Of a DNA stretch of 64,000 nt, positions 1 to 18,503 are shown piece after piece (within the stretch, counting starts at the first letter, position 1; every line of letters begins with the position of its first letter). This stretch comes from Ramlibacter henchirensis (GTDB lineage Bacteria > Pseudomonadota > Gammaproteobacteria > Burkholderiales > Burkholderiaceae_C). The notes below the pieces were generated by a model. That model made no database searches. It had not been told where the DNA came from and worked only from the letters and a program-made list of their open reading frames with translations. The stretch lies in contig NZ_SMLM01000002.1 of assembly GCF_004682015.1 (NCBI RefSeq), forward strand, positions 682,001-746,000. The letters are read 5' to 3'. The position numbers were made by a program, and so were the translations under genes.

Positions 1-443
1 ACGCGGCGCACGCGGTGCGGCTGGGTGTCGATGCGCTGGTGGTGTCGAACCACGGCGGCCGCCAGCTGGACGCCGCGCCTTCGCCGCTGGAAGTGCTGCC
101 CGCGATCCGCGCGGCCGTCGGCGACGACGTCGAGCTCATCCTGGACAGCGGCGTGCGCCGCGGCTCCGACATCGTGATCGCCCGCTGCCTCGGCGCGAAG
201 TTCTCGATCTTCGGCCGGCCCACGCTGTTCGGCGCGGCGGCCGCAGGGGCAGCGGGCATCGAGCGCGTGATCCGCATCGTCCGCAACGAGGTCGACATGG
301 TGCTGGCGCAGATCGGTTGTGCTTCCTTCGACCAGCTGCATCCGGGTTTCCTCTGGTCGCCCGGGACGCCGCACGCCACCCGCGCGGCGCCCGCACCGGA
401 AGTCCAACATGTGGAACAACGGGTGGCCGTTCCCTTTCCTTGA
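1..443 (+). CDS. FMN-dependent alpha-hydroxy acid dehydrogenase/oxidase, C-terminal part (5' end outside window)
   Basis: The frame is open from the left edge to TGA at 441-443, so only the last ~145 residues are present. They hold the end of the FMN TIM barrel of the LldD/glycolate oxidase family: SNHGGRQLD, which supplies the active-site His and Arg, then DSGVRRGSD, and LGAKFSIFGRP, which binds the FMN phosphate. The family oxidises 2-hydroxy acids such as lactate, glycolate or mandelate to 2-oxo acids. The tail after the last helix is unusually long and Pro/Ala rich. It lies 51 bases before a Bug gene on the same strand and may be the end of an operon feeding the dioxygenase and aldolase downstream. 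The substrate cannot be told from this fragment. Confidence 0.9.
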   Translation, partial: AAHAVRLGVDALVVSNHGGRQLDAAPSPLEVLPAIRAAVGDDVELILDSGVRRGSDIVIARCLGAKFSIFGRPTLFGAAAAGAAGIERVIRIVRNEVDMVLAQIGCASFDQLHPGFLWSPGTPHATRAAPAPEVQHVEQRVAVPFP

Positions 444-494
444 CGCACTCCCGTCGCTAACGTGTCCGGTTCCAGAAAGACAAGGAGACAAGAC

Positions 495-1469
495 GTGAAT
501 ACTTTCGGCAGAAGGTCCGTCCTCGCACTGCTCGCCGCCGCACCCGCCGCGCTGCTGGCCCCCGCCGCCCTGGCGCAATCGGACTATCCCAACCGGCCGG
601 TGAAGATCATCGTGGCCTACCCGGCGGGCCAGAGCACCGACATCGCCACGCGCTACTTCGCGCAGAAGCTGACGCAGGCGCTGGGCCAGAGCTTCGTGGT
701 GGAGAACCGGCCCGGCGCGTCCGGCAACATCGGCACCGCGGTGGCAGCCAGATCGGCGCCGGACGGCTACACGCTGATCATGGGCGCCTCCGGCACGCAT
801 GCGATGAACCCGGCGCTGTTCGAGAACCCGGGCTTCGATGCCGAGAAGGACTTCGACGCCATCATGCTCACGGCGCTGATTCCGTTCGCCATCTCCGCCG
901 GTCCCAAGGCCAACATCAACTCCCTCAGCGAGCTGATCGCACTGGCGCGCAAGACGCCCGGCAAGGTCGACACGGCCATCCCCAGCGTCACGGGGCAGCT
1001 CGTGCTGGAGATGCTCAAGCAGCGCGACGTGCCGCTGTTCGGCGTGAAGTTCAAGGGCTCGGCCGATGCGATGACCGCCACGCTCGGCGGGCATGTGTCG
1101 GTGCTCATCGACACCGTGGCGGCCACGCGCACCCAGCTGGGCAAGATCAACGTGCTGGCGGTGACCACGGCCCAGCCGATGGCGTCGATGCCCGGCGTGA
1201 AGACGGCCAGCGAGCAGGGCCTGGCCAACTTCAACATCGCCGCGTGGAATGCGCTGATGGCGCCCAAGGGCGTTCCGCCCGAGATCCAGGCGAAGCTGTC
1301 CGCCGAGATGCGCAAAATCCTGGACCTGCCCGAGACGCAGAAGGCCCTCTCGGACCTCGGCTTCGAGCGCGCGCCCGTGATGAACACGAACGAACTCAAT
1401 GCCTGGCTGCGGGAGGAGCGCCGCAGCTACGCGCAGACCATCAAGACCGCCCAGATGAAGCCCGAGTGA
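495..1469 (+). CDS. Bug/TctC family tripartite tricarboxylate transporter substrate-binding protein
   Basis: A periplasmic solute receptor of the Bug family, which typically binds small carboxylates. I chose the GTG at 495 because AAGGAG lies at 482-487; an in-frame GTG at 462 would put extra charged residues before the signal peptide. The N-terminus is a typical signal (residues 1-~25, cleavage after ALA-Q). Family landmarks follow: YPNRPVKIIV, PAGQSTD at the ligand loop, VVENRPGASGNIGT and DGYTL. The length of 324 residues is normal. No tctA/tctB membrane partners are nearby. It ends 8 bases before the TauD-type dioxygenase, which suggests co-transcription and a shared substrate. Confidence 0.9.
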   Translation: MNTFGRRSVLALLAAAPAALLAPAALAQSDYPNRPVKIIVAYPAGQSTDIATRYFAQKLTQALGQSFVVENRPGASGNIGTAVAARSAPDGYTLIMGASGTHAMNPALFENPGFDAEKDFDAIMLTALIPFAISAGPKANINSLSELIALARKTPGKVDTAIPSVTGQLVLEMLKQRDVPLFGVKFKGSADAMTATLGGHVSVLIDTVAATRTQLGKINVLAVTTAQPMASMPGVKTASEQGLANFNIAAWNALMAPKGVPPEIQAKLSAEMRKILDLPETQKALSDLGFERAPVMNTNELNAWLREERRSYAQTIKTAQMKPE

Positions 1470-1477
1470 GACACCCC

Positions 1478-2356
1478 ATGGCCAAGATCCGCACCACCCC
1501 GCTGCACAGCAATTTCGCCGTGCAGGTACACGCCCAGGTCATGGACCTGGTGGACGATCCCGACGCGATCGAGGAACTGAAAAGCCTCTGGCAGAAGTCG
1601 CCCGTGATGATCTTCCGCCGCCAGTCGCTGGAGGAATCGGAGCTGGTGCGCTTCACGGAGCACTTCGGCCGCTGCGAGACCACCGGCCGCAAGGACATCC
1701 AGTCGCCCTACCAGGAGCAGATCATCTACTTCAGCACGCTGAAGTACGCGGACGGCCGCTTCGTGGGCGGCTTCGCGGGCGGCGACGACGTGGACTGGCA
1801 CTCCGACCAGACCTACCAGGTGCGGCCCGCCACCGGCGCCATGCTGTTCGGCACCGAAGTCCCGCGCGACGGCGGCGACATCTACTGGGCCGACCAGTAC
1901 GGCGCGTGGGACCGCCTGCCCCGGGACGTGCAGCAGCTGATCGAGGGCAGGACCGGCGTCTACCGCTACGCCAAACGCTACGCGATGCTCAACGCGCTGG
2001 AGCTCAAGGACAAGGAAAAGGCCAACGCGATGCTCAGCCTGCCCGATGCGAAGCACAAGGTGGTGCTGACGCATCCGCGCACCGGCCGCAAGGCGCTGTA
2101 TGCGGACCCGACGACGCTGGTGGAGATCGAAGGCCTCTCCAAGGCGGAGAACGAGCGGGTGCTGCCGATCCTGTTCGAGACGGGCGGACATCCGTCGCTG
2201 GTGTACCGGCACAAGGTGCACAACGGCGACCTGTTGATGTGGGACAACGGCTGCACCATGCACCGCCGCGACGAGATGCGGCTGGACCAGCCGCGCCTGA
2301 TGAAGCGCACCACGTTCCGCCTGTCCGCCGCCGACTACTGCGTGCCGCAGCCATGA
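1478..2356 (+). CDS. TauD/TfdA family Fe(II)/2-oxoglutarate-dependent dioxygenase
   Basis: A 292-residue cytoplasmic dioxygenase. The HxD pair of the iron site is visible as WHSDQTY (His108, Asp110), and the distal histidine probably lies in NGCTMHRR (His262), followed by the 2-oxoglutarate-binding Arg region. Enzymes of this family hydroxylate a substrate next to a heteroatom or ether bond (taurine, 2,4-D, alkyl sulfates) while converting 2-oxoglutarate to succinate. The start ATG at 1478 follows the Bug gene by 8 bases, and the stop overlaps the next start as ATGA at 2353. It therefore forms a tight unit with a Bug receptor and a class II aldolase. The true substrate is unknown; taurine itself is not indicated because no TauABC genes are near. 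Confidence 0.9.
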   Translation: MAKIRTTPLHSNFAVQVHAQVMDLVDDPDAIEELKSLWQKSPVMIFRRQSLEESELVRFTEHFGRCETTGRKDIQSPYQEQIIYFSTLKYADGRFVGGFAGGDDVDWHSDQTYQVRPATGAMLFGTEVPRDGGDIYWADQYGAWDRLPRDVQQLIEGRTGVYRYAKRYAMLNALELKDKEKANAMLSLPDAKHKVVLTHPRTGRKALYADPTTLVEIEGLSKAENERVLPILFETGGHPSLVYRHKVHNGDLLMWDNGCTMHRRDEMRLDQPRLMKRTTFRLSAADYCVPQP

Positions 2357-3117
2357 AGCGCGACGCCGCGGTGCGCGACCTGGTCTCCGAGCAGGAGTGG
2401 CAGGCCCGCGTCGAGCTCGCGGCTTGCTACCGGCTCATGCCGCTCTACGGCATGAGCGACCTGATCTACAACCACATCACGTCGCGCGTACCGGGCACCG
2501 ACGACCGCATCCTGATCAACCCGTACGGCTGGCTGTACGAGGAGATCACGGCGTCCAGCCTCGTGACGATCGACCTGGCCGGCAACGTCGTCTTCAACCC
2601 GCACGACGACCACGGCATCAACGCGGCGGGCTACGTGATCCACAGCGCGGTGCACATGGCGCGGCACGACGTGGGCTGCGCCATGCACACGCACTCGCGC
2701 GCCGGCATGGCCGTCTCGGCGCTCAAGTGCGGGCTGCTGCCGCTGACGCAGACGGCGATGCGCTTCGCGGACATCGCCTACCACGACTACGAGGGGCCGG
2801 CCATCGACGAGGCCGAGCGCGAGCGGCTGGTGCGCGACCTCGGCGATGCGAGCGCCATGATCCTGCGCAACCACGGGCTGCTGGCCGTGGGCGCCGACGT
2901 GCCGCAGTGCTTCAACACCATGTACTGGCTGGAGATGGCCTGCCGCGCGCAGGTCAACGCGATGGCGTGCAACGCGGAACTGCTGATCCCGCCGAAAGAC
3001 GTCGTGGACAAGACCTGCCACCTCTACAAGCCGCACGTGCGGCGTCCGCACGGCCTGCTGGAGTGGCCGGCGATGCTTCGCACGCTCGACCGGCGCGATC
3101 CTTCCTACAAGCAGTGA
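2353..3117 (+). CDS. Class II aldolase/adducin family protein
   Basis: A 254-residue protein of the AraD/FucA fold. The zinc-binding pattern is present: MHTHSRAG (His112, His114) and a third histidine in RNHGLLAVG (His174). Members cleave or epimerise sugar phosphates and related hydroxy-carboxylates, and many Burkholderiales members next to Bug genes have unknown substrates. The ATG at 2353 overlaps the stop of the dioxygenase gene (ATGA), so translation is probably coupled. Lacking a diagnostic substrate-specificity loop that I can read, I cannot choose between aldolase, epimerase and decarboxylase activity. It faces the IclR gene convergently with a 29-base gap. Confidence 0.88.
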   Translation: MKRDAAVRDLVSEQEWQARVELAACYRLMPLYGMSDLIYNHITSRVPGTDDRILINPYGWLYEEITASSLVTIDLAGNVVFNPHDDHGINAAGYVIHSAVHMARHDVGCAMHTHSRAGMAVSALKCGLLPLTQTAMRFADIAYHDYEGPAIDEAERERLVRDLGDASAMILRNHGLLAVGADVPQCFNTMYWLEMACRAQVNAMACNAELLIPPKDVVDKTCHLYKPHVRRPHGLLEWPAMLRTLDRRDPSYKQ

Positions 3118-3146: not shown

Positions 3147-3899
3147 CTAAGCCTTCGTCCACTGCCTCGCGATGAACCCGCACGTGGCCAGCAGCAGCTG
3201 GGCGTGCTCCGTCACGTTGGCCTCCATCCGATGACGCGGGCCGGCGACGGCGACGGCCAGCGTTTCCGAGTGCACCGACAGGAAGGCGGAAACGGCCCAC
3301 ACGTCGGGCACGTTCTCGCCGCGCGTGAGGAAGTAGCCGCGGCGGCGGCTCTCCAGGATGTCGGCGATCAGCGCTTCCTGGTCGGTCAGCGTGGCGCCCG
3401 TGATCGCCGGCAGCGCGCGGCCCGACATTTGCGCGCGCAGCTCGGCCTCCTTGAGGCTGCCCAGGAGCGCCTTGCCGATGGCGCTGGAATGCAGCGGCTT
3501 GAACTCGCCCGGTTTGGCGGAGTACCGGATCGAGTGCGGGCTCTCCACCACCTGGAGATAGATCACCGCGTCGCCCTGCCGCTTGCCCAGGATCACCGTC
3601 TCTCGCGAGGCGTCGCGCAGCCGCTCCAGCATGGGCATGACGCGTTCGACGAACGGATCCTTCTCGTGGATCGAGCGCGCCAGGTCGAAGAAGCGTCGCG
3701 TCGGGTACAGCGCCCTCGGGCGCGTCAGCGAGTACAGGTAGCCGCGAGCGGTGAGCGTGCCCACGATCGCGTGGCAGCTGCTCTTGGGGATGCCCGTCAT
3801 CTCCGCCAGGTCCGTCAGCGACAACGGCTTCTGCACCTTGTCGAACGCTTCGAAGATGTCGAGCACACGCTCGACGGCGGTGACGGCGACGTTGCTCAT
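3147..3899 (-). CDS. IclR family transcriptional regulator
   Basis: A 250-residue regulator. Residues 1-~65 form the IclR winged helix-turn-helix (AVERVLDIFEAF, LTDLAEMTGIPKSSCHAIV, a wing with TRGY-like ARGYLY), and the remainder is the GAF-like effector domain (SAIGKALL, RRRGYF, AVSAFLS). IclR proteins usually respond to small organic acids or aromatic acids and bind palindromes near the genes they control. It is divergent from the B12 mutase operon, and the 122-base gap between them contains two palindromes (see the operator entries). It is the obvious candidate regulator of that operon and probably of itself. Confidence 0.92.
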   Translation of the reverse strand: MSNVAVTAVERVLDIFEAFDKVQKPLSLTDLAEMTGIPKSSCHAIVGTLTARGYLYSLTRPRALYPTRRFFDLARSIHEKDPFVERVMPMLERLRDASRETVILGKRQGDAVIYLQVVESPHSIRYSAKPGEFKPLHSSAIGKALLGSLKEAELRAQMSGRALPAITGATLTDQEALIADILESRRRGYFLTRGENVPDVWAVSAFLSVHSETLAVAVAGPRHRMEANVTEHAQLLLATCGFIARQWTKA

Positions 3900-3968: not shown

Positions 3969-3988
3969 TTGTTCGAAATGCCGAACAA
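3969..3988. promoter_or_regulatory. Candidate IclR operator, palindrome 2
   Basis: TTGTTCG-(6 bases)-CGAACAA is a perfect inverted repeat with 7-base arms, 34 bases upstream of the start of the crotonase-fold gene. The GTTCG/CGAAC arms agree with half-sites known for several IclR regulators such as the Pca/Pob type. It probably controls the operon that starts at 4022. Confidence 0.55.
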
Positions 3989-4021: not shown

Positions 4022-4822
4022 ATGACCGCCATGCAAGCCTCCACGAAGCAAGGCAGCGGCGAGAACGTCCGCATCGACGAGCGCAGCGGCGCGGTCTGGA
4101 TCACCGTCGACCGCGCCCAGAAACACAACGCGCTCGCCCGCCCCGTTCTCAACGAGCTGGCCACCGCCGTGCGCAGCGCGGGCGCACGCGAGGACGTGCG
4201 CTACATCGTCGTCACCGGCGCGGGCGACAAGTACTTCGCGGCCGGCGGCGACCTGCGCGATCTCGCCAACGTGCGCGACGAAGCGGCCGTCATGGCGATG
4301 ATGGAAGAAGCCGCCGCGGCGCTCGACGCGATCCGGCACTGCCCCGTCCCGGTGATCGCGCTGCTCAACGGCGACGCGATCGGGGGCGGCGCCGAACTCG
4401 CACTGGCCTGCGACATGCGCCTGCAGTCCGCCCATGCGCGCATCGGCTACATCCAGGCCAAGCTGGCCATCACCTCGGCCTGGGGCGGCGGCCCCGACCT
4501 GTTCCAGCTCATCGGCCCGGCCCATGCGATGCGCATGATGAGCCGGTGCGAACTGGTGGGGGCCGAGCAGGCGCTCGCCTGGGGCCTGGCGGACGCCGTG
4601 ATCCGCGACGGTGCCGGAGGCGATGACCTCAAGGCCTTCCTCGAGCCGCTGGACGCCTGCGCGCCGCAGGTGCTGCGCGGCATCAAGGCCCAGGCCATCG
4701 CGGCGCGCCAGGGCGCGGGCTGGAAGGCGCACCGCGCCGTCGAACAGCAGCACCTGGTCCGCACCTGGCTGCACGACGACCACTGGGCCGCCTCCGAAAA
4801 GCTTTTGTCCAAAGGTTCCTGA
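4022..4822 (+). CDS. Crotonase-superfamily protein (enoyl-CoA hydratase/isomerase fold), possible acyl-CoA decarboxylase
   Basis: A 266-residue crotonase-fold protein. Oxyanion-hole segments are seen at FAAGGD (72-77) and IGGGAEL (120-126). Aligning to rat crotonase, Glu144 corresponds to Glu125 here, but the second catalytic glutamate (Glu164) is Gln145 in YIQAKLAI. A plain hydratase needs both, so a decarboxylase or other reaction is more likely; methylmalonyl- and ethylmalonyl-CoA decarboxylases of this family also lack that glutamate, and SAWGGG recalls them. It is the first gene of the mutase operon and ends one base before the mutase start. The start is uncertain: ATG 4022 or ATG 4031, neither with a clear ribosome binding site. 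Confidence 0.85.
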   Translation: MTAMQASTKQGSGENVRIDERSGAVWITVDRAQKHNALARPVLNELATAVRSAGAREDVRYIVVTGAGDKYFAAGGDLRDLANVRDEAAVMAMMEEAAAALDAIRHCPVPVIALLNGDAIGGGAELALACDMRLQSAHARIGYIQAKLAITSAWGGGPDLFQLIGPAHAMRMMSRCELVGAEQALAWGLADAVIRDGAGGDDLKAFLEPLDACAPQVLRGIKAQAIAARQGAGWKAHRAVEQQHLVRTWLHDDHWAASEKLLSKGS

Positions 4823-4823
4823 G

Positions 4824-6449
4824 ATGAACGCAAGAGACCCGAATCCGCCGGCCGAACTGGCCGAACCCGTGCTGGGGCCGGTGAGCCGCAGCGGCATTCC
4901 CGTGCCTACCGCCGTCGACGCGAGCGCCGTCAAGCCCGAGAACATCGGCAAGCCCGGCGAATACCCGTTCACGCGCGGCATCTTCCCCGACGGCTACCAG
5001 GGCCGGCTGTGGACCATCCGCCAGTACTCCGGCTTCGGCACCGCGGAGGAATCGAACGAGCGCTACAAGTTCCTGCTGCAGCAGGGCCAGACCGGCCTGT
5101 CGGTGGCGCTGGACCTGCCCACGCAGTGCGGCTTCGATCCCACCCACCCCATGGCCCGGCCGGAGATCGGCAAGGTCGGCGTGTCGCTGTCCAACCTGAG
5201 CGAGGCCGAGATCCTGTTCAAGGACCTGGACCTCTCGAAGATCTCGACCTCGTTCACGATCAACGGCACGGCCGCGATCATCTACGCGATGTACCTGGCC
5301 GTGGCCGACAAGCAGGGCGTTCCGCGCAGCAAGCTCACCGGCACGATCCAGAACGACATCCTCAAGGAGTACGTGGCGCGCGGCACCTGGATCTTCCCGG
5401 TGCGGCCGTCGATGCGCCTGATCGCCGACTCGATCCTGTACTCCAACGACGTCACGCCGCGCTTCAACCCGATCAGCATCGCGGGCGCGCACGTGCGCGA
5501 CGCGGGCGCGACCGCCGCCGAGGAGATGGCGTACACGCTGGCCAACGGGCTGGCGTACGTGGAGGAGTTGAAGCGCCGCGGCGGCGACGTCGAGAAGTTC
5601 GCCAAGCGGCTCTCGTTCTTCTTCTACGTGCACATGGACTTCTTCGACGAGATCGCGAAGTTCCGCGCCGGCCGGCGCCTGTGGGCGCGCTTCATGAAGG
5701 AGCGCTACGGCGCCAACGATCCGAAGGCGCAGCACTTCCGCTTCGGCGTGGTGTGCGGCGGCTCCTCGCTGGTCGCGCCGCAGCCGTACAACAACGTGGT
5801 GCGGGTCGCGGTGGAAACCATGGCGGCGGTGTTCGGCGGCGCGCAGTCGATCTTCACCTGCGCATTCGACGAAGCCTTCCAGATCCCCACCGAGTTCTCG
5901 GCGGAGCTGGCGGTGCGCACGCAGCAGATGATCGCCTTCGAATCGGGCATCGGGCGCACGGTCGACCCGCTGGGCGGCAGCTACTTCCTGGAGCAGCACA
6001 CCGATCGCATGGAGGAGGCCATCCTCAAGGTGATGAACGAGATCGACGCCTACGGCGGCGTGACCCCGGCCATCGAGGACGGCTGGATCCAGCTGCGCCT
6101 GGCCGAGCGCGGGCTGGAGCGCAAGCTGGACACCGACTCGGGCAAGAACGTGATCGTCGGCCAGAACCACTTCCGCAAGGAGGGCGAGCAGATCGGCGTC
6201 CGCGAGATCTTCAAGCTTGACCCGACCGTGGCGCAGCGGGCCCTGGAGAAGTTCCAGCGCGTGCTGGACACGCGCAGCCAGTCGGCGGTGGATGCGTCCC
6301 TCGCGAAGCTGGCAACCGCGGCCGCGAAGGACAGCGAGAACGTGATGCCTTACCTGGTGGACTGCTGCCATGCGTACGCGACGGTGGGCGAGATGGTCGC
6401 GTGCCTGAAGAAGGAATGGGGCGAATTCAAGGAGCCGGTGAACCTATGA
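4824..6449 (+). CDS. Methylmalonyl-CoA mutase family protein, large (catalytic) subunit without B12 domain
   Basis: A 541-residue acyl-CoA mutase TIM-barrel subunit. Typical segments are WTIRQYSGFGTAEESN, LSVALDLPTQ and DPLGGSYFLE. It lacks the C-terminal cobalamin domain of MutB; that domain is the next gene, a layout known from isobutyryl-CoA and 2-hydroxyisobutyryl-CoA mutases. The specificity positions, however, read Tyr68 (methylmalonyl-CoA mutase Tyr89; Phe in isobutyryl-, Ile in hydroxyisobutyryl-type) and Arg186 in YVARGT (mutase Arg207; Gln in the isobutyryl type). Ala95 replaces the Asp of hydroxyisobutyryl mutases. These residues predict a substrate with a second carboxylate, such as methylmalonyl-CoA/succinyl-CoA or a homologue. 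Stop and next start overlap (ATGA at 6446). Confidence 0.93.
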   Translation: MNARDPNPPAELAEPVLGPVSRSGIPVPTAVDASAVKPENIGKPGEYPFTRGIFPDGYQGRLWTIRQYSGFGTAEESNERYKFLLQQGQTGLSVALDLPTQCGFDPTHPMARPEIGKVGVSLSNLSEAEILFKDLDLSKISTSFTINGTAAIIYAMYLAVADKQGVPRSKLTGTIQNDILKEYVARGTWIFPVRPSMRLIADSILYSNDVTPRFNPISIAGAHVRDAGATAAEEMAYTLANGLAYVEELKRRGGDVEKFAKRLSFFFYVHMDFFDEIAKFRAGRRLWARFMKERYGANDPKAQHFRFGVVCGGSSLVAPQPYNNVVRVAVETMAAVFGGAQSIFTCAFDEAFQIPTEFSAELAVRTQQMIAFESGIGRTVDPLGGSYFLEQHTDRMEEAILKVMNEIDAYGGVTPAIEDGWIQLRLAERGLERKLDTDSGKNVIVGQNHFRKEGEQIGVREIFKLDPTVAQRALEKFQRVLDTRSQSAVDASLAKLATAAAKDSENVMPYLVDCCHAYATVGEMVACLKKEWGEFKEPVNL

Positions 6450-6862
6450 ACGATGTGAAGGAAGCCAGGCCTCTGGCGGGCAAGCGGATCCTGGTGGGCA
6501 AGCCGGGCCTGGATGGCCACGACATCGGCGCCAAGATCGTCGCGCTCACGCTGCGCGACGCCGGCGCCGAGGTGATCTACACAGGCCTGCGCCGCAGCCC
6601 CGCGCAGATCGCGCAGGTGGCTGTCGACGAGGGCGTGGACGCGGTCGGCCTCTCGATCCTCTCGGGCAGCCACAAGGAGCTGGTCGGCGACGTCATCTCC
6701 GAGCTGCGCGCGCACAAGGCGGGCGACGTGAAGGTGTTCGTCGGCGGCACGATCCCCGGCGAGGACCACGCCGCGCTGCGCGAACTGGGCGTGGCGGCCG
6801 TCTTCACCGCCGACATGCCGCTGGACAGGGTCGTCTCGCAACTGGCGGCGGAGCTGGCATGA
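6446..6862 (+). CDS. Cobalamin-binding small subunit of acyl-CoA mutase
   Basis: A 138-residue stand-alone B12-binding domain. It shows the DxHxxG signature as DGHDIG (23-28, His25 being the lower cobalt ligand), the nucleotide-loop serine segment GLSILSGSH and the glycine-rich VGGTIPGED. It is the partner of the large subunit encoded immediately upstream; together they make a heteromeric adenosylcobalamin mutase. It overlaps the previous stop and the next start by four bases each (ATGA at 6446 and at 6859), so the three products are likely made in fixed proportion. Confidence 0.95.
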   Translation: MNDVKEARPLAGKRILVGKPGLDGHDIGAKIVALTLRDAGAEVIYTGLRRSPAQIAQVAVDEGVDAVGLSILSGSHKELVGDVISELRAHKAGDVKVFVGGTIPGEDHAALRELGVAAVFTADMPLDRVVSQLAAELA

Positions 6863-7992
6863 AGGGCAACGGGCCGCTGGCCGGCATCCGCATCATCGAG
6901 GTCGGCCACATGCTGGCAGGACCTTACTGCGGGCTGCTGCTGGCCGACATGGGAGCCGAGCTGATCAAGGTGGAGCCGCCCGAAGGCGACATCGCACGCA
7001 AGGTCAGCCCGCATTTCATCGGCCCGCACAACGCCTACTTCGCGAGCCTGAACCGCAACAAGAAAAGCGTGGTGCTGGACCTGGCGAGCAGCGAGGGCCG
7101 CGCCCAGCTGCAATCGCTCGCGGCGACGTCCCATGCGCTGATCACCAACCTGCGGCCGTCGGCGATCAAGAAGCTCGGGCTCACCTACGCCAGCCTGAAG
7201 GAATGCAACCCGAAGATCGTTTGCGTTGCGCTCACCGGCTATGGCCTCGAAGGCCCCTACTCCGAGGCGCCGGCCTACGACTACGTGATCCAGGCATTGA
7301 CGGGCGTGATGGCATTGACGGGCGATCCGTCTTCGCCGCCGACCAAGGCGGGCTACTCGGCCGTCGACAACTCGGCGGGCATCATGGCCGCCATGGGCCT
7401 GCTGGCCAAGATCGTCGAAGGCCGCGGCGGCCAGGTCGACGTCGCCATGTACGACGTGATGATGTCGCAGCTGAACTACCTGGCGGGCGCGTCGCTCAAT
7501 GCGGGCGAGACGGTGGAGCGGCTGGCCAACTCCTCCCATCCGTACATGGTGCCGGCGCAGATCTTCCCGACGAAGGATGGCTGGCTGACGCTGTTCATCA
7601 CGCACGACAAGTTCTGGCAGAAGTTCTGCACCGAGATCGGCCGGCCCGAGTGGGCGAGCGATCCGGTGTTCGCCACCATGGCGGCGCGCCGCGAGAACCG
7701 CTCGCGCGTGCTGGCGGCCATCGGCGAAGTGCTGATGCAGGCCGGCGCCGCCGAATGGGTGCGACGCCTGGCGCCGCTGGGCATCGTGGTCTCCGAAGTG
7801 GGAACCCTGGCGCAGGCGCTCGAAGGCGACCTCGCGAAGTCGCGCGACCTGGTGGTCCCGCTGGGCGACGCGAAGTCGGGACTGCGCGCTGTGGGCGCGC
7901 CGGTGAAGTTCGACGGGTTCTCGCCCGGCTACGGGATGCCGCCGCTGCTGGACGAGCATCACCAGGAAGTGCTGGGGAAGGCGATCGCGTGA
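6859..7992 (+). CDS. CaiB/BaiF (class III) CoA-transferase
   Basis: A 377-residue family III CoA-transferase. The N-terminal Rossmann part has GIRIIEVGHMLAGPYC and LADMGAELIKVEPPEGD; the predicted catalytic aspartate is Asp141 in PAYDYVIQA. These enzymes move CoA between carboxylic acids, commonly from succinyl-CoA to a dicarboxylic or hydroxy acid. In this operon it is the only CoA-activating enzyme, so it probably makes the acyl-CoA substrate of the mutase. If succinyl-CoA is the donor and the mutase returns succinyl-CoA, the cycle would regenerate its own CoA donor (inference). It overlaps both neighbours. Confidence 0.93.
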   Translation: MKGNGPLAGIRIIEVGHMLAGPYCGLLLADMGAELIKVEPPEGDIARKVSPHFIGPHNAYFASLNRNKKSVVLDLASSEGRAQLQSLAATSHALITNLRPSAIKKLGLTYASLKECNPKIVCVALTGYGLEGPYSEAPAYDYVIQALTGVMALTGDPSSPPTKAGYSAVDNSAGIMAAMGLLAKIVEGRGGQVDVAMYDVMMSQLNYLAGASLNAGETVERLANSSHPYMVPAQIFPTKDGWLTLFITHDKFWQKFCTEIGRPEWASDPVFATMAARRENRSRVLAAIGEVLMQAGAAEWVRRLAPLGIVVSEVGTLAQALEGDLAKSRDLVVPLGDAKSGLRAVGAPVKFDGFSPGYGMPPLLDEHHQEVLGKAIA

Positions 7993-8894
7993 GCAAGCCG
8001 CCGCTGGACCGCCACGCCCTGGGCCGGCGCCTCTCCAAACTGGCGAACGCCAGCACGGCGGACCTGGTGCAGCTGCAGCGGCTGGAGCCCTGCGCGAATC
8101 CGGCCCGGCGCATCGGCCTGACGGGCCCGCCGGGCGCGGGCAAGAGCACGCTGGCGGGACACCTCGCGTTGCATCGCGGCCGAGACCGGCGGCTCGGAGT
8201 GCTCGCCGTGGACCCGAGCAGCCCCAAGTCCGGCGGCGCCATCCTGGGCGACCGCATCCGCATGGACGAACTGGCCGGCAGCTCCGAGATCTACATCCGC
8301 TCGATCGGATCGCGCTCCGCGAGCGACGGACTCTCGGACAACCTGCCCGAGATGCTGGACGTGATGGACGAGTTCGGCTTCGACGAGGTGCTGCTCGAAA
8401 CGGTGGGCGTGGGCCAGGCCGAGTACGCCGCGCGCGCGCAAGTGGACACGCTCGCGCTCGTGCTGCTGCCCGAAAGCGGCGACGTGGTGCAGGCGATGAA
8501 GGCCGGCATCATGGAGATGGCCGACATCTTCGTCGTCAACAAGTCCGACCTGCCCGCGGCGCAGAAGATGGCCACGGACATCCAGCGCATCAGCGCCCTT
8601 TCGCGCCGCCCCGAAGATGCGTGGCGGCCGCCCGTGCTGCTGGTGTCGTCGATGAAACCGGAGACCGTGTCAGCGCTGTCGGCGGCGATCGACCGGCACC
8701 AGGCCTGGCTGGCCGAGTCCGACAGGCGCGCGGCGCTGCTGCAGGCTCGCGCGCGCTATCGCCTGCGGCGGCTGATCGAGCGACGCGCGGCCGACGCGGT
8801 CGCATCGCTCGATGCGAAGACGCTCGAGGCGCCGCTGGAGCAGCAGCTCGAACAAGCCTTGCAGGAGATCCGCAGGCTCTCCACGACCCACTGA
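7989..8894 (+). CDS. meaB: MeaB/ArgK-type GTPase, mutase-associated chaperone
   Basis: A 301-residue G3E-family GTPase. Motifs in order: P-loop GPPGAGKST (46-54), the DPSSPKSGGAILGDRIRM block (75-92) typical of MeaB/ArgK, ETVGVGQ (137-143) and NKSD (184-187). MeaB proteins load adenosylcobalamin and protect or rescue B12 mutases, so its presence supports a functional mutase. The GTG start at 7989 overlaps the transferase stop (GTGA); an upstream continuation of the frame is only the shadow of the transferase gene. Confidence 0.95.
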   Translation: MSKPPLDRHALGRRLSKLANASTADLVQLQRLEPCANPARRIGLTGPPGAGKSTLAGHLALHRGRDRRLGVLAVDPSSPKSGGAILGDRIRMDELAGSSEIYIRSIGSRSASDGLSDNLPEMLDVMDEFGFDEVLLETVGVGQAEYAARAQVDTLALVLLPESGDVVQAMKAGIMEMADIFVVNKSDLPAAQKMATDIQRISALSRRPEDAWRPPVLLVSSMKPETVSALSAAIDRHQAWLAESDRRAALLQARARYRLRRLIERRAADAVASLDAKTLEAPLEQQLEQALQEIRRLSTTH

Positions 8895-8911
8895 CAACAG
8901 GAGACAAGACC

Positions 8912-9877
8912 ATGCTCAAGCAGATCCGCCGCTGGGCCGCGCTCTTCGCGCTGGCCTCCTTCGCGCTCGCCGGCCACGCGCAGGAGTTTCCCAACAAGCC
9001 GGTGAAGATCCTGGTGCCGCAGACGCCGGGTGGCGCTTCGGACTCGCTGGCGCGCATCGTGGCGCAGAAGCTGGCCGAGAAATGGGGCCAGCCCGTGGTC
9101 GTGGAGAACCGTGCCGGGGCCGGCGGCAACGTGGGCATGGAGGTCGTGGCCAATTCGCCGGCGGACGGCTACACGCTCCTCATGAGTTACGTGGGCACGC
9201 ACGCGATCAACGGCTCGCTCTACAAGAAGCTGCCCTTCGATCCGGAAAAGGACTTCGCGCCGGTCGCCACGCTCGCCACGCTTCCGTTCGTCGTGGTCGT
9301 CAAGTCGGATGCGCCGTTCAAGACCCTCCCGGAACTGGTCGCGGCGGCGAAGAAGAGCCAGCTCACCTACGGCTCCGCGGGCAACGGTTCGGTGAACCAC
9401 CTGCTGGGCGAGATGTTCAACGCGGCTGCGGGCGTGAAGCTGGTGCACGTGCCTTACCGCGGCGCGGCGCCCGCCATGCAGGACCTGATGGGCGGACAGA
9501 TCAACGTCGTGTTCACCAGCCTGCCCTCGGTTTCGGGCCACATCAAGCAGGGCACGCTGCATCCCATCGCGGTCACCAGCGCCAAACGCGCAGGCTCGTT
9601 CGCGAACATCCCGACCATCGCCGAATCCGGCTTCAAGGATTTCGACGTCAACCCCTGGTTCGGGCTGTTCGCGCCGGCCAAGGTGCCGCCGCAGGTGGTC
9701 CGCAAGATCAACGCCGACGTGAACGAAGTGCTCAAGTCAAAGGATGTGGTCGACAAGTTCTCCGCCCAGGGCGCCGAGCCCTACATCACCGACCCGCAGC
9801 AGTTCGCCGGCGTGCTCAAGGCGGATATCGCCAAATGGAGCCAGGTGGTCAAGGCGTCCGGCGCGTCCGTCGACTGA
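8912..9877 (+). CDS. Bug/TctC family substrate-binding protein of the mutase operon
   Basis: A 321-residue exported receptor: signal peptide at residues 1-~23 ending GHA-Q, then FPNKPVKILV, TPGGASD, VVENRAGAGGNVG and DGYTLL. GGAG at 8897-8902 precedes ATG 8912. It sits 17 bases after meaB and 9 bases before the RraA-like gene, inside the mutase operon, so it probably captures the carboxylate that the CoA-transferase activates. No TctAB membrane proteins are encoded here; the MFS carrier at the end of the operon may do the transport step. Confidence 0.9.
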   Translation: MLKQIRRWAALFALASFALAGHAQEFPNKPVKILVPQTPGGASDSLARIVAQKLAEKWGQPVVVENRAGAGGNVGMEVVANSPADGYTLLMSYVGTHAINGSLYKKLPFDPEKDFAPVATLATLPFVVVVKSDAPFKTLPELVAAAKKSQLTYGSAGNGSVNHLLGEMFNAAAGVKLVHVPYRGAAPAMQDLMGGQINVVFTSLPSVSGHIKQGTLHPIAVTSAKRAGSFANIPTIAESGFKDFDVNPWFGLFAPAKVPPQVVRKINADVNEVLKSKDVVDKFSAQGAEPYITDPQQFAGVLKADIAKWSQVVKASGASVD

Positions 9878-9886
9878 AGGCCCGAG

Positions 9887-10591
9887 ATGAGCCCCTCCAA
9901 GGTCTACCTGAAGGTCAACCGCGTGGCGGCCGAGATCGTGGCCCAGGCGCGCGAGGTCACCGTGGCCGACGTGCACGAAGCCATGGGCCCGCCCGGCCGC
10001 GCGGCGCTGATGTCGGCGCGGATGCGCCCGCTCAAGGATGGCCAGAAGATCGCCGGGCCGGCCGTCACGGCGTTCTGCTGGCCCGGCGACAACCTGATGA
10101 TGCACCGCGCGCTGTACCTCTCGCAGCCCGGCGACGTGCTGGTGGTCGTCTGCCAGGCCGAGCTGTCGGGCGCGCAATGGGGCGACCTCGCCACCCGCTA
10201 CGCGTTGCAGAAGGGCCTGGCCGGCGTCGTGGTCCAGGGCTGCGCGCGCGATGTCGACCAGGTGCGCGCGCTAGGCCTGCCGGTGTGGTCCACCCACATC
10301 TGGCCGATCCATCCCGACAAGTCGGGACACGGATTCGTGAACGCGCCGGTGGTGTGCGAAGGCGTGAACGTGCGACCGGGCGACCTGATCATCGCGGACG
10401 GCGACGGCGTCATCTGCGTGCCGCGCGGCGAGGCCTCGCGCGTCGTCTCCGCGGCGCAAGGGAAGATGCGCAAGGAAGACGAGGCCGCGGAGAAGGTGCG
10501 CGCCGGGGCTGCCGTGTGGGACCTGAGCGGCGCCGCCGAGATCTATGCGCGCATGCAGGTCGAAGAGATCGACGGCGCCTACGACGACTGA
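9887..10591 (+). CDS. RraA-like protein (HMG/CHA aldolase and oxaloacetate decarboxylase family)
   Basis: A 234-residue member of the RraA/dimethylmenaquinone methyltransferase-like family. The family core is seen as GAQWGD (95-100) and VVQGCARDVDQVR (115-127, Arg121-Asp122), with DGDGV near the end. Related enzymes cleave 4-hydroxy-4-methyl-2-oxoglutarate or decarboxylate oxaloacetate; many others are unassigned. Within a mutase/CoA-transferase operon a lyase or decarboxylase acting on a branched hydroxy-diacid is plausible but unproven. RNase E inhibition (true RraA) is unlikely given the context. The MFS gene begins directly after its stop. Confidence 0.85.
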   Translation: MSPSKVYLKVNRVAAEIVAQAREVTVADVHEAMGPPGRAALMSARMRPLKDGQKIAGPAVTAFCWPGDNLMMHRALYLSQPGDVLVVVCQAELSGAQWGDLATRYALQKGLAGVVVQGCARDVDQVRALGLPVWSTHIWPIHPDKSGHGFVNAPVVCEGVNVRPGDLIIADGDGVICVPRGEASRVVSAAQGKMRKEDEAAEKVRAGAAVWDLSGAAEIYARMQVEEIDGAYDD

Positions 10592-11797
10592 ATGACGCCG
10601 CGTCCCACCGGCGCCTGGACCGCGCTGGCCATCACGCTAGCCGTGCAGGCCCTGGTGTCGATGGCGGTCCTCACCGTCCCGGCGATGGCGCCGGCCATGG
10701 CGCAGTCGCTCGGCGTGTCGGCCACGCTGATCGGCGCGTACATCGCGGTCGTCTACAGCGGCGCCATGATCGCGAGCCTGATGGCCGGGCCGCTGGTTGT
10801 GCGCTTCGGCGCGATCCGCATCAGCCAGCTCGGGCTCGTGGTCTGCGCCGCGGGGCTCGCCCTGCTCGCGCTCACGCCCGCACTCCCCGCCGCGTTCATC
10901 GGCGCGTTCCTCATCGGCGTCGGCTACGGGCCCATCACGCCCGCCAGTTCGCACCTGCTGGCCAGGACCACCCCCGCCCATCGCGCGTCCCTGGTCTTTT
11001 CCATCAAGCAGTCCGGCGTGCCGCTGGGCGGCGTGATGGCGGGCGCGTTCGTTCCGGCCCTGCTCATCGCCGGCGGCACCGAAGCTGCCCTGCTGGCCGT
11101 GGCCGCAGGCAACCTGGTGTGCGCCCTCATCGCCGAACCGATGCGGCCGCCGCTCGATGCGGACCGGGAGCCGGGGCGCCCCCTGAGCTTCACGAGCCTG
11201 GTCGGGCCGTTGCGCCTGGTCGCGTCGCATGCGGACCTGGCGCGCCTGGCCTCGTATTCGTTCATCTTCTCCGCCGTGCAGATGTGCCTGGCCACGTACC
11301 TCGTGACCTACCTGCATTCGGCGCTGGGCTTTGGCCTGGTGGCGGCCGGCGCGGTCCTTTCGACGGCGCAGGTCGGCGGCGTCATCGGCCGGATCGTGTG
11401 GGGCTACATCGCGGACCGTTGGCTCGCTCCCCGCCTCATGCTGGCGGTGCTGGCCGGCCTGATGGCCCTGTGCTGCGGTGCCACCGCCGCCCTGCAGGCC
11501 GGCAGCCCCATGCCGCTGCTGCTCGCGCTGATGGTGGTGTTCGGTGCTTCGGCGACGGGCTGGAACGGCGTCTACCTCGCCGAAGTCGCCCGGCTCGCAC
11601 CGGCAGGCCATGCGAGCGCGGCCACGGGCGGCTCGCTCGCGGTGACGTTCCTGGGCGTGGTGCTCGGGCCGGTGCTGTTCGGCCTGTTGTCGGGCGCATT
11701 CGACAGCTACCGCGCCGGCTACCTCGCATTGGCGCTCCCCGCGGCCTGGTGCGGCTGGCAGCTGGTTCGCCACGCACGACGCGTCGTGACTGCCTGA
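10592..11797 (+). CDS. MFS transporter
   Basis: A 401-residue major facilitator with about 12 hydrophobic segments and a central hydrophilic loop near residues 185-205 (EPMRPPLDADREPGR). The loop-2/3 type motif is degenerate (AGPLVVRFGAIR). The ATG at 10592 abuts the previous stop with no spacer, so it is the last gene of the mutase operon. It could import the diacid that starts the pathway or export a product. It converges on the amidase gene with only 21 bases between and no obvious terminator. Confidence 0.88.
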   Translation: MTPRPTGAWTALAITLAVQALVSMAVLTVPAMAPAMAQSLGVSATLIGAYIAVVYSGAMIASLMAGPLVVRFGAIRISQLGLVVCAAGLALLALTPALPAAFIGAFLIGVGYGPITPASSHLLARTTPAHRASLVFSIKQSGVPLGGVMAGAFVPALLIAGGTEAALLAVAAGNLVCALIAEPMRPPLDADREPGRPLSFTSLVGPLRLVASHADLARLASYSFIFSAVQMCLATYLVTYLHSALGFGLVAAGAVLSTAQVGGVIGRIVWGYIADRWLAPRLMLAVLAGLMALCCGATAALQAGSPMPLLLALMVVFGASATGWNGVYLAEVARLAPAGHASAATGGSLAVTFLGVVLGPVLFGLLSGAFDSYRAGYLALALPAAWCGWQLVRHARRVVTA

Positions 11798-11818: not shown

Positions 11819-13351
11819 CTAGGCGCCCAGGATGGTTTCGAACCGCGCCGCAGCTGCCAGGAGCTGCGCGTCATCGCCGCACGTGCCGGCCAACTGCAAG
11901 CCGACGGGCAGGCCCAACTGGGTGCGGCCGCACGGAACGGTGATGGCGGGCATCCCGGTGAGGTTGAACGGCAGCGTGCAGCGCGTCAGTGCCGGATGGA
12001 TGGGAAAGGTGCCTGCGCCGATCTCCACCGTCGGACCCGGCTCGGGCGCGGGCGTGACGACCGCCGGCGTGATCAGGACATCGGCGCCCTTTTGCAACGG
12101 GGCGTGCAGCGACGAGCGCAGCGTGCCGCGCAACCGCTGCGCCTTGATGTAGTCCACCGCGCGAAGGAACTGGCCGGTCTCCAGCCGCACGCGGACCTCG
12201 TCGCCGAGACCTTCCGGACGGCGAAGCCCCCTGTCCATGTGGACCTGCGCGGCTTCGGCGCAGATGGTGAAGAACTGCAGGGTGGGCGCCAGTTCAACCG
12301 CGTCGACAGCGCCTGCGTCGATGGACACGCCCGCGCGTCGAAGCTTGTCGAGGGCGGCCTCGTAGATCTCCCGCACTTCCGGATCGATGGGATCCAGGAA
12401 GTAGTTCGACACGGCGAACGCCCGCAGGTCCGCGGCAGCCGGGCGCGCAAGCGCTCCTTCGGGCAGGCCCGCCATGATCTCGGTCAGCAGCACATGGTCC
12501 AGCGCCGACTTGGCGAAGGTGCCGACGTGGTCGAGCGACCATGCCAGCGGCAGCACGCCTTCCAGCGGGATCAGGCCGAAGCTGGACTTGAAGCCGGAGA
12601 TGCCGCACAGCGCTGCCGGCATGCGCACCGAGCCGGCCGTGTCGGTGCCCAATGCGATGTCGGCCATGCCGGTGGCCACGGCGACGGCCGATCCGCCGCT
12701 GGATCCGCCCGCAAGGCGCTCGCCACGTCCGGGATGCCGCACACGGCCATCGTGCGGGTTGTCGGTCGTCGCGCCGTAGGCCAGTTCGTGCATGGTCGTC
12801 ATGCCGACCACGATCGCATCCTCGCGTTGCAGCCGCTGCACGCATTCGGCGCTGGATGCGGGCCGTTGCACAGGAAGGGATCGGGTACCGAACGTCAGGG
12901 GCATGCCCGCGACTGCAAGGCAATCCTTCACCGCCACCAGCACGCCCGCCAGGCGGCCCACCCGCTCGCCGCGTGCGGCGCGATCCCGGAGCGCCCTGGC
13001 CTGCTCGATCGCGCCCATCGCATCGACATGGCGCATGGCGTTGAGCGCGGCGCCCGCGTCGGTCGCAGCCAGCGCCGCTTCGACGCGAGCGACGGGATCG
13101 GTCCGTCCGCGGCTCACATCCTGCGCCAACCGGTACAGGCTGCCTGAATGCGGCGCCGTGCCCGCCGGCAATGCACCTGCGGTGGCAGGCCCGATCGGCG
13201 GGCAGTCGTCGCCGGTGTCCGCGTTGGCCAGCCGCTGCAAATCCGGCAGCGCAGAGGCCAATCGTTGCGACCACAGCGGCGCGCGGTCCGCATGGGGCGT
13301 CCCGAAGACTGCTGCGGCCGCGTTAACGTAGGCCTCGATCTGATCTGTCAC
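11819..13351 (-). CDS. Amidase (amidase signature family)
   Basis: A 510-residue amidase-signature enzyme. The Ser-cisSer-Lys triad is visible: Lys142 in VAVKDCLAVAG, Ser217 in AGGSSGGSA and Ser241 in GTDTAGSVRMP (24 residues apart as in GatA). I chose GTG 13351 because GAGGGG lies 6 bases upstream; the frame continues upstream only as shadow of the binding-protein gene. It hydrolyses an amide or carbamate of unknown identity; GatA itself is not indicated because GatB/C are absent. It follows a nitrate/sulfonate-type binding protein gene in one (-) unit, so the bound ligand may be its substrate. Confidence 0.9.
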   Translation of the reverse strand: MTDQIEAYVNAAAAVFGTPHADRAPLWSQRLASALPDLQRLANADTGDDCPPIGPATAGALPAGTAPHSGSLYRLAQDVSRGRTDPVARVEAALAATDAGAALNAMRHVDAMGAIEQARALRDRAARGERVGRLAGVLVAVKDCLAVAGMPLTFGTRSLPVQRPASSAECVQRLQREDAIVVGMTTMHELAYGATTDNPHDGRVRHPGRGERLAGGSSGGSAVAVATGMADIALGTDTAGSVRMPAALCGISGFKSSFGLIPLEGVLPLAWSLDHVGTFAKSALDHVLLTEIMAGLPEGALARPAAADLRAFAVSNYFLDPIDPEVREIYEAALDKLRRAGVSIDAGAVDAVELAPTLQFFTICAEAAQVHMDRGLRRPEGLGDEVRVRLETGQFLRAVDYIKAQRLRGTLRSSLHAPLQKGADVLITPAVVTPAPEPGPTVEIGAGTFPIHPALTRCTLPFNLTGMPAITVPCGRTQLGLPVGLQLAGTCGDDAQLLAAAARFETILGA

Positions 13352-13380: not shown

Positions 13381-14349
13381 TTACCTGGCCGCAACGTGCA
13401 GCAGGTCCTTCGACGCCAGCGGGCCAGTGAGCATGCCGTGCTTGCGCATCAGCGCCAGCGACGCATCCACGGACCTGGGATCCACCGTCTTCTTGAAAGG
13501 CGCGACGTGCAGCTTCTTGAGCCGATCCTCCGGCAGCTTCGTGAAGCTGGCGATCAGCTTGACCCATTCCGGCGAGCCGGCGTTGGAGTTCATCCAGTCG
13601 ATGCCCTTGTCCAGTCCGCGCACGAACGCGTCGATCGTCTTCGGGTTGGACTTGATGAAGGACTCCGTTGCGACGTACTGCGAGATCGACATGCCCTTCT
13701 GCACGCTGTGGAAGGGCCAGCCCACGAGTTCCAGCGCTCCGCTGTCGATGCCGGTGGACAGGAACGGGTCGACCAGCACGCCGGCATCGACCTGCCCGCC
13801 CTTGATCGCGTCCGTCATCTGGGGAAACGGCACCTCCACGTAGGTCACGCGGGACGGGTCACCTCCGGTGGCCTCGACCCAGGCGCGCGAATACAGCCAG
13901 ATGACGTTGGAACGGTTGTTCACCGCGACGCGCTTGCCCTCGAGGTCCTTGCCGGTCTTGAAGCCCTTGCCCCGGGCTGCCACCAGCGCCGTGCCCTCCG
14001 GCGGCGCATCCGGTGCGTTGGCTGCGGGCGCGATGATCTTGAACCCGAGACCCTGGGCCGCGCCCAGGGCCGTGGAGACGATGTTGCTGAAGGCCACCTG
14101 CACCTGGCCCGCCGCCAATGCAGGCAGCCCCACCGCGCCGCCGGCGGTCGGCGTCAGGTCGACCTCGAGCCCTTCCGCGGCGAAGAAGCCCTTCTGGATC
14201 GCCGCATGCAGCGCGGCCGTGTCGATGATGGGCACGACGCTGGCACGGATCTTCACCGGCGCCTGCGCCAGCGCGGCCAGCGGGCTGAGTCCGGCCACGG
14301 CGGCGGACGCGGCGACGCGATGGAACTGGCGGCGGGAAAGAAGGCTCAT
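13381..14349 (-). CDS. ABC transporter substrate-binding protein (SsuA/TauA/NMT1-like)
   Basis: A 322-residue periplasmic binding protein of the nitrate/sulfonate/taurine/thiamine-precursor type. The N-terminus has SRRQF followed by a hydrophobic stretch, resembling a twin-arginine signal, with cleavage near ALAQ. Mature landmarks include AIQKGFFAAEGLEVDL and GKRVAVNNRSN. GGAGA lies upstream of ATG 14349. No permease or ATPase gene is adjacent, so it must use a transporter encoded elsewhere. Downstream (29 bases) is the amidase, suggesting the ligand is an amide or nitrogen compound. Confidence 0.88.
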   Translation of the reverse strand: MSLLSRRQFHRVAASAAVAGLSPLAALAQAPVKIRASVVPIIDTAALHAAIQKGFFAAEGLEVDLTPTAGGAVGLPALAAGQVQVAFSNIVSTALGAAQGLGFKIIAPAANAPDAPPEGTALVAARGKGFKTGKDLEGKRVAVNNRSNVIWLYSRAWVEATGGDPSRVTYVEVPFPQMTDAIKGGQVDAGVLVDPFLSTGIDSGALELVGWPFHSVQKGMSISQYVATESFIKSNPKTIDAFVRGLDKGIDWMNSNAGSPEWVKLIASFTKLPEDRLKKLHVAPFKKTVDPRSVDASLALMRKHGMLTGPLASKDLLHVAAR

Positions 14350-14480
14350 GCAGGTCTCCGTGCTTTGGAACCGGGGCTGCGAGTGTTGCGGCCCCGAGCC
14401 TTCGAAGCCAGCGAAATTTGCGCGATGCGCAGAAAACGTAGCCCTTTGGAGCCAAGTTGGCCGTGGATCGCCTGAGCGCC

Positions 14481-15146
14481 TCAGATCGCGTAGATCACAC
14501 CCGCCGCACCCGCCACGACCAGGCTTCCCGCCCAGACGACGTCGAGGTTCAACCACGCCCGCCGCAGGAAACCAAGGCCCAGGTACCGGTAGACGGCCCA
14601 GGCGATGAGCAAGCCCGCCAGCAGCATCGCCACAGTATGCACGGTGGCCACCGCCAGCGCGGTGGCGACGTTCGACGACCCCAGCGCGCGAACGACGGTC
14701 GCATGGGCCGCGGCCGCCCTGCCATCGGCAGAGGACGGCTCGCAGAGCCCCAGCGTGAAGGGCAGCAGCATGAGCCCGGCGCCGTGCGCGGTCGCCATCC
14801 AGAACGACCACCAGGCCAGTTGCGTCGGGCGGATGCGCGCCAGCGCCCGCGGATGCCGCCGCTGCACGAGGCGGTAGATGCCGTAGAGCAGGACCAATGC
14901 GCCCGCGCCCAGCTGGATCGTGCGGCTCCAGGACACATAGCCCGCGAGCCAGGCGAACGGCACCAGCGCGACCGACATGGCTGCGAGGTGTCCGCCGCCC
15001 AGCGGCAGCAAGGTCGCGAAGACGGCGCGGTCCGCTTTCTCGGCAAGCCCGTTCGCGACCGCCAGCGGCCAACCCATCGCCGGGTTGAGGCCGTGGTAGA
15101 TGCCGAGCGCGACGACGGTGAGCCAGAGCGCCGCGGTGCTGCTCAA
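14481..15146 (-). CDS. Polytopic membrane protein linked to SBP56
   Basis: A 221-residue integral membrane protein with about six hydrophobic segments. Conserved-looking polar-in-membrane motifs are GIYHGLNPAMGW, LLPLGGGHLAAMS and MATAHGAGLMLLP; the His residues placed beside membrane segments suggest metal or cofactor handling. I chose TTG 15146 because it overlaps the SBP56 stop (TTGA), implying translational coupling; no strong ribosome site is seen. I do not recognise a named family with certainty. Its tie to SBP56 suggests a role in metal supply or in export/import of that enzyme's substrate. Confidence 0.7.
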   Translation of the reverse strand: MSSTAALWLTVVALGIYHGLNPAMGWPLAVANGLAEKADRAVFATLLPLGGGHLAAMSVALVPFAWLAGYVSWSRTIQLGAGALVLLYGIYRLVQRRHPRALARIRPTQLAWWSFWMATAHGAGLMLLPFTLGLCEPSSADGRAAAAHATVVRALGSSNVATALAVATVHTVAMLLAGLLIAWAVYRYLGLGFLRRAWLNLDVVWAGSLVVAGAAGVIYAI

Positions 15147-18501: not shown

Positions 18502-18503
18502 GC

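Follow-up and report, generated by a model that had tools for sequence, protein, structure and literature searches.

A stretch of 64,000 nucleotides from Ramlibacter henchirensis (contig NZ_SMLM01000002.1, positions 682,001 to 746,000; hereafter the window) carries an eight-gene operon on the forward strand (4022-11797), in which a split adenosylcobalamin (AdoCbl) mutase is joined to a crotonase-fold enzyme, a class III CoA-transferase, a MeaB-type chaperone and putative uptake genes, beside a divergent gene for an IclR-family regulator. The question that this locus raises is which compound such a gene set serves. The specificity is known for few B12 acyl-CoA mutases, and what such enzymes act on is difficult to predict; the present clade, whose pocket residues are fixed and different and whose operon is minimal and conserved, is a defined target for finding a substrate. 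The initial annotation had described the operon under its divergent IclR gene as an undescribed branched-dicarboxylate pathway. Each of the eight genes has its expected Pfam domain, and every domain named in that description is confirmed. When the same gene set was sought in genomes its core was found at 60 loci, and in the literature searched (mostly outside subscription journals) no title or abstract among the matches listed describes the set or assigns it a pathway. The most likely reading of this conserved operon is a route like that of the Escherichia coli sbm operon, acting on a bulky substituted succinate, with its substrate, direction and crotonase reaction predicted rather than observed.

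A split mutase with a rebuilt pocket

The two mutase subunits belong to the AdoCbl acyl-CoA mutase superfamily, having PF01642, PF02310 and a DxHxxG-type motif within the conserved KPGLDGHDIG. The best match of the large subunit in the Protein Data Bank (PDB) is HCM (4r3u), the mutase of 2-hydroxyisobutyrate use, followed by methylmalonyl-CoA mutase (MCM). Numbering residues after Propionibacterium shermanii MCM, as checked on 1req, we find that Tyr89, Ala116, Gln197, Arg207, His244 and Glu370 are shared with MCM and invariant in 60/60 orthologs, whereas seven other pocket positions are changed throughout: Phe117, Tyr243, His328, Gln330, Thr331 and His364 are replaced by Leu, Ala, Gly, Val, Cys and Phe respectively in every ortholog, while Asn366 has become Cys in 57 orthologs and Ala in three. 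These seven residues are common to the MCM, HCM and ICM references; among 24 reference mutases, those at 328, 330, 331 and 364 are kept in all, and those at 117, 243 and 366 in 23, the exception being ECM-like. When the clade is compared with 41 references (without the organism's own ECM-like mutase L080, and with two other ECM-like rows treated as a separate group), no more than 15 columns of the alignment tell the two apart, and seven of them are these positions. The HCM-like L101-L104 and L141, with the reference residues intact, the ECM-like or outlying L135-L137 and the G271 fragments stood outside this comparison. Tyr89 and Arg207 presumably hold the free carboxylate of the substrate; since both are kept, a dicarboxylyl-CoA substrate is likely.

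A looser search within the order found other split mutases. Two of these (L127 and L138) belong to operons that also carry a CoA ligase (truncated where the stretch ends), hydantoinase A and B, an acyl-CoA dehydrogenase and a class III transferase, a gene content that fits the iaa operon, to which we take the hydantoinases to belong. Pfam was run on six proteins of L138 and three of L127; the hydantoinases and ligase of L127 were identified by eye. According to PMC8360864, the iaa operon comprises ligase IaaB, transferase IaaL, mutase IaaGH and dehydrogenase IaaF, and IaaGH acts on phenylsuccinyl-/benzylmalonyl-CoA in indoleacetate degradation. The two mutases carry Ile, Ala or Gly, Gly, Ala and Cys at 328, 330, 331, 364 and 366, with 117 and 243 unchanged; a rebuilt 328-331, 364 and 366 with Tyr89 and Arg207 kept is common to them and to the window clade, the actual residues differing, in a comparison that rests on these iaa-like operons rather than on A. 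aromaticum IaaG itself. Because seven pocket positions are replaced, five of which are also rebuilt in the iaa type, the substrate of the window mutase should be bulkier than methylmalonyl-CoA or succinyl-CoA.

Five more groups (L128; L129; L130 with L132; L131 with L134; L133) show other pocket combinations. All keep Arg207, Gln197, His244 and Glu370, and Tyr89 as well except L128 (Asn); the seven positions align without gaps in the iaa-like rows and in these. Neighbours of the L128-L134 mutases, mostly recognised by eye, include MmgE/PrpD pairs, AMP ligases, Asp/Glu-racemase-like proteins and Bug receptors. In a maximum-likelihood tree of 42 chosen rows, 13 of the 60 clade members among them, the window clade has support of 100/100 and is joined with the five groups and the iaa-like mutases at a moderate 93/87, apart from MCM, HCM, ECM-like mutases and IcmF; the five groups do not form a supported clade of their own (48/2), and L128, L129 and L133 have long branches. 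A tree of 53 rows, made without the further split mutases and with 29 of the 60 members, again gives the window clade 100/100. By sequence, then, the window mutase is akin to the iaa-type mutases. We see an even chance that the genes specify a catabolic pathway, so far undescribed, for a bulky and branched dicarboxylate, and that the mutase is one product of a wider radiation among split B12 mutases (with six further pocket types, the iaa-like included). These enzymes would keep the carboxylate clamp and use positions 117, 243, 328-331 and 364-366 as a code for substrate specificity, so that several new dicarboxylyl-CoA rearrangements would result. Comparing the clade with iaa-type mutases indicates which pocket positions may set specificity, and so helps in annotating genes labelled 'methylmalonyl-CoA mutase' and in enzyme engineering.

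Spread, core genes and regulator

A contig scan of genomes returned 54 mutase loci, 53 at 69-96% identity and one at 48%, and the nearest named ortholog is that of Ramlibacter sp. Leaf400 (96%). The best 120 of 8,000 scored proteins in a large protein set are 88-94% identical to the mutase, and plasmid-borne orthologs occur in Diaphorobacter, Paraburkholderia, Marinobacter and Sulfitobacter (71.5-87.6%). The clade is nonetheless patchy, at about 1% of genomes: 3/300 in a sample of the order, 3/369 of the class, 3/200 of the family and 4/398 of the phylum, each sample including the R. henchirensis genome itself. The third genome of the order sample is G271, whose fragments of 67 and 77% are visible only at a looser cut-off; apart from a G271 fragment, no mutase between 69% and 50% identity appeared in these searches, and the two other genomes of the genus in the family sample lack a clade mutase.

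The 60 core loci, defined by a mutase of at least 68% identity, span alpha-, beta- and gammaproteobacteria. They hold the small subunit in 60, crotonase in 57, MeaB in 57, the class III transferase in 56, IclR in 47 and Bug in 27, as judged by tblastn with identity cut-offs of our choosing; our own open reading frame script, used for unannotated loci, can miss genes and did miss the window crotonase and MeaB. These are related sequences, two contigs coming from one strain, and many contigs stop near the operon, so that counts of absence are upper bounds. Left out of the count were L037 (on the contig of L076), the partial mutases L061 and L065, L066 (48%) and short duplicate fragments. The recurrence of the core on 60 distinct contigs exceeds chance.

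RraA (8 of 60) and MFS (9) are accessories outside this core. Other accessories are a solute-binding protein (SBP), an IPNS-like 2-oxoglutarate (2OG) oxygenase, an aldehyde dehydrogenase (ALDH) and a short-chain dehydrogenase/reductase (SDR) at 12 loci each, TauD and another Bug at 8 each, a hydroxyacid dehydrogenase and TAXI-TRAP at 6 each, a second TauD type at 5, a flavin monooxygenase at 4 and a class II aldolase at 3. As bare counts, the module of SBP, IPNS-like oxygenase, ALDH and SDR (12 loci) and the TauD module (8) never occur together, and the second TauD type accompanies the former once.

The region between the IclR and crotonase genes contains TTGTTC-N8-GAACAA twice, one copy having a single mismatch. 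In 37 divergent intergenic regions (the window and 36 loci, L061 left out), allowing up to 3 mismatches of 12, at least one site is present in all and at least two in 32; the 85 sites compare with a mean of 3.6 and a maximum of 9 in 200 Markov resamplings, an excess which is not independent proof because the motif was taken from the same, related sequences. Spacing is 59-61 bp in 32 of 48 pairs. The exact palindrome occurs once in the R. henchirensis genome (4.79 Mb), at 3969-3988 of the window, and with up to one mismatch there are 12 places against 5 for a reversed-pattern control, so that no wider regulon can be claimed. The paired palindromes are probably the operator of the adjacent IclR regulator. 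Operator-like palindromes with one mismatch also stand just before a second CoA-transferase/TauD2 pair (L018, 6067) and just before a DctP-type TRAP receptor gene (L057, 11730), each a hint of co-regulation.

Three further observations were made at individual loci. At L059 (Ramlibacter terrae H242) only truncated or less similar segments align for the mutase and some of the genes around it, which may reflect frameshifts or faults of assembly; other relatives are intact. In Diaphorobacter sp. HDW4B (L070, 1-2193) another mutase, ECM-like and accompanied by MeaB and a Liv-type ABC transporter, lies upstream of the core at a distance of about 9-10 kb, and a Shinella plasmid (L074) carries a cassette of aminotransferase, B12 subunit, MeaB, HCM-related mutase (Val/Asp/Gln), crotonase and AMP ligase.

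A proposed route and its alternatives

Among the closest known arrangements is sbm (scp) of E. coli, in which mutase scpA, argK/MeaB, the crotonase-family methylmalonyl-CoA decarboxylase scpB and CoA-transferase scpC form one operon; the window operon has members of the four corresponding families, its crotonase being a putative decarboxylase. It differs in its split mutase with a rebuilt pocket (42% identical to ScpA), its class III rather than class I transferase, a crotonase only 22% identical to ScpB, and its added uptake genes and IclR. We rate it an evenly balanced matter whether the core is an sbm-like catabolic cassette for a bulky 2-substituted succinate. In such a cassette, Bug, TRAP or ABC systems would take up the diacid, or accessory modules would produce it from a precursor; the class III CoA-transferase would pass CoA to it from succinyl-CoA or the product acyl-CoA; the split AdoCbl mutase, maintained by MeaB, would shift the CoA-thioester group to the adjacent carbon, yielding a substituted malonyl-CoA; and the crotonase would decarboxylate this to an acyl-CoA for beta-oxidation, pulling an unfavourable mutase equilibrium, with the whole operon controlled by IclR through the paired palindromes. 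Neighbouring 2OG oxygenase, P450, SDR and ALDH genes are consistent with conversion of an alkyl group to a carboxylate.

Of the two catalytic Glu residues of a hydratase (144 and 164), the first is present in 54/54 crotonase sequences, and the second is Gln in 53 and His in one; a conserved Trp (51/54) precedes GG. Replacement of the second Glu makes a canonical enoyl-CoA hydratase, with its two Glu, unlikely. The corresponding residues of ScpB are Glu and Pro. Among the best 25 of 71 NCBIfam models none reaches its cut-off, and the enzyme is read as a probable decarboxylase chiefly because of the scpA-argK-scpB-scpC analogy. The surroundings of WGG may resemble ethylmalonyl-CoA decarboxylase ECHDC1; a GGGAEFTT motif appears in PMC6717113. 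The transferase is a class III enzyme whose APAYD motif aligns with YfdE, its Asp being the presumed catalytic residue. It comes nearest to the NCBIfam models for succinate-glutarate and succinyl-CoA:mesaconate transferases, all 7 models scoring below cut-off, and is 41% identical to that of L128, 34% to that of L129 and 26-28% to the iaa-like ones.

Several points weigh against the sbm-like route. Its operon lacks an epimerase gene, although sbm requires an added one for making propionate from glucose (PMC5512728). The similarity of the crotonase to ScpB extends over 170 aa, with Gly where ScpB has His (AGHD), and ECM-like mutases also depart from MCM at 117, 243 and 366, but not at 328, 330, 331 and 364. 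Summed side-chain volumes change by -202 cubic Å relative to MCM at the seven positions in the window clade and by -168 and -196 in the iaa-like mutases, a likeness counted in favour of the route and hinting, roughly, at a substituent of aryl size; but such sums ignore backbone and neighbours, and range from -323 to -25 in the five other subfamilies. No class III transferase was seen at four of the 60 loci (L046, L076, L077, L090), and inspection by eye gave no clear substitute at the first three; several neighbours at these four loci were identified by eye. At L090 the opposite strand encodes, at a distance of about 6 kb and together with SDR and ALDH, a class I-type CoA-transferase whose best NCBIfam model, below cut-off, is butyryl-CoA:acetate CoA-transferase; this is the class used by sbm and was counted in favour of the sbm-like reading, while an AMP-forming acyl-CoA ligase, downstream with a P450, could perform the activation instead.

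The initial annotation had envisaged the opposite direction, in which a substituted malonate receives CoA from succinyl-CoA and the mutase turns it into a succinyl form, regenerating the donor. Its combination of dicarboxylate-type uptake, CoA-transferase, B12 mutase and possible decarboxylase is borne out, Tyr89 and Arg207 being kept in 60/60, but not a mutase making succinyl-CoA, given a pocket unlike that of MCM in every ortholog and rebuilt at five positions that are also changed in the iaa type. A self-priming CoA cycle could still run if CoA came from succinyl-CoA or from the product acyl-CoA, on the pattern of sbm; the part left unsupported is regeneration by the mutase. A reverse route yielding some other substituted succinyl-CoA seems unlikely to us: the transferase scores highest with succinyl-CoA-dependent models (below cut-offs), the accessory oxygenase, SDR and ALDH could convert a methyl to a malonate-type carboxyl, and the equilibrium of MCM favours the succinyl form, but the crotonase, present in 57/60 loci, would have to be otherwise employed and is left without a clear job. 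That the substrate is instead an arylsuccinyl-CoA, with the crotonase in place of the oxidative decarboxylase IaaF, we consider improbable. The joint grouping of the mutases, Cys366, a like gain in volume and the presence in both systems of a split mutase beside a class III transferase (acting in iaa on substituted succinyl/malonyl-CoA, PMC8360864) speak for it; the window mutase, however, is 43% identical, has other residues at 117, 243, 328, 330, 331 and 364, a different transferase, and an operon without hydantoinase, molybdenum hydroxylase, IaaF-type acyl-CoA dehydrogenase or ring-opening genes. By gene content (ligase, hydantoinase-type enzyme, IaaF and IaaL) it is not an iaa operon.

Use of 2-hydroxyisobutyrate or another monocarboxylate would account for the PDB match, split subunits and MeaB partner shared with HCM, yet is very improbable: the Ile, Asp and Gln that HCM has for Tyr89, Ala116 and Arg207 are absent in 60/60, the HCM rows cluster in a clade of their own (100/98 in the 53-row tree, 99/98 in the 42-row tree), and the HCM-type operons examined carry an AMP-forming ligase. 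We give equally little credence to ordinary methylmalonate or propionate metabolism with a diverged MCM, despite the family annotation and the kept Tyr89 and Arg207, since the seven replaced residues are present in 41/41 references and one (L081) of three further MCM-family genes in the R. henchirensis genome already has ordinary MCM residues. The operon contains no epimerase or propionyl-CoA carboxylase gene, as had been noted, and the view that this is not ordinary propionate metabolism stands. Bulky alkyl rearrangements have a parallel in ActD/MatB, proposed as hexylmalonyl-/2-pentylsuccinyl-CoA mutases (PMC5719088); the likeness is by description rather than sequence, and those enzymes are biosynthetic, actinobacterial and of opposite proposed direction. 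Methylsuccinate and 2,2-dimethylsuccinate (giving butyryl-CoA or isovaleryl-CoA) are possible substrates of the sbm-like route but look small for the pocket; methylmalonate, itaconate/mesaconate, 2-hydroxyisobutyrate and pantoate were considered as ideas without evidence.

Layout of the operon and its surroundings

The claim that most junctions overlap by 4 bases was overstated. Three of seven do (6446-6449, 6859-6862 and 7989-7992), RraA and MFS abut (10591/10592), and gaps of 1, 17 and 9 bp separate crotonase from mutase, MeaB from Bug and Bug from RraA; a single transcription unit of eight genes is credible all the same. The RraA-like protein marginally reaches the cut-off of NF006731 (4-carboxy-4-hydroxy-2-oxoadipate aldolase/oxaloacetate decarboxylase), at 179.6 against 179.

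Table 1. Features of the operon and its upstream flank, in window coordinates
Feature	Position	Strand	Basis and remarks
FMN hydroxyacid dehydrogenase, end	15-443	+	named through its relative at locus L042
Second Bug receptor	462-1469	+	Pfam, NCBIfam
TauD-type Fe/2OG oxygenase, neighbouring accessory module	1466-2356	+	Pfam, NCBIfam; beside core in 8/60 loci
Class II aldolase	2353-3117	+	Pfam, NCBIfam
IclR-family regulator	3147-3899	-	Pfam IclR_C, HTH_IclR; 47/60 loci, some contigs ending short of it
Operator-like palindrome 1, TCGTTC-N8-GAACAA	3908-3927	.	motif search; 1 mismatch
Operator-like palindrome 2, TTGTTC-N8-GAACAA	3969-3988	.	exact; starts 61 bp beyond palindrome 1
Crotonase-fold enzyme, proposed substituted-malonyl-CoA decarboxylase	4022-4822	+	Pfam ECH_1
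B12 mutase large subunit, rebuilt pocket	4824-6449	+	Pfam MM_CoA_mutase PF01642; TIGR00641 above cut-off
B12-binding small subunit, KPGLDGHDIG kept	6446-6862	+	Pfam B12-binding PF02310; TIGR00640 above cut-off
Class III CoA-transferase	6859-7992	+	Pfam CoA_transf_3; nearest PDB chain YfdE
MeaB-type GTPase chaperone	7989-8894	+	Pfam MeaB; TIGR00750 slightly under cut-off
Bug/TctC solute receptor	8912-9877	+	Pfam TctC; close relatives in 27/60 loci
RraA-like protein, accessory	9887-10591	+	Pfam RraA-like; 8/60 loci
MFS carrier, accessory	10592-11797	+	Pfam MFS_1; 9/60 loci

The upstream set (15-3117) shares the strand of the operon and stops before IclR. Immediately downstream, on the opposite strand, lies an amidase-family gene (11819-13297), followed on that strand (about 13381-19376) by an NMT1-like receptor (within 13381-14280), an SBP56 family gene (15143-16546) that we take to be possibly a methanethiol oxidase, an aldehyde dehydrogenase (16957-18507) and an ABC permease (18504-19376).

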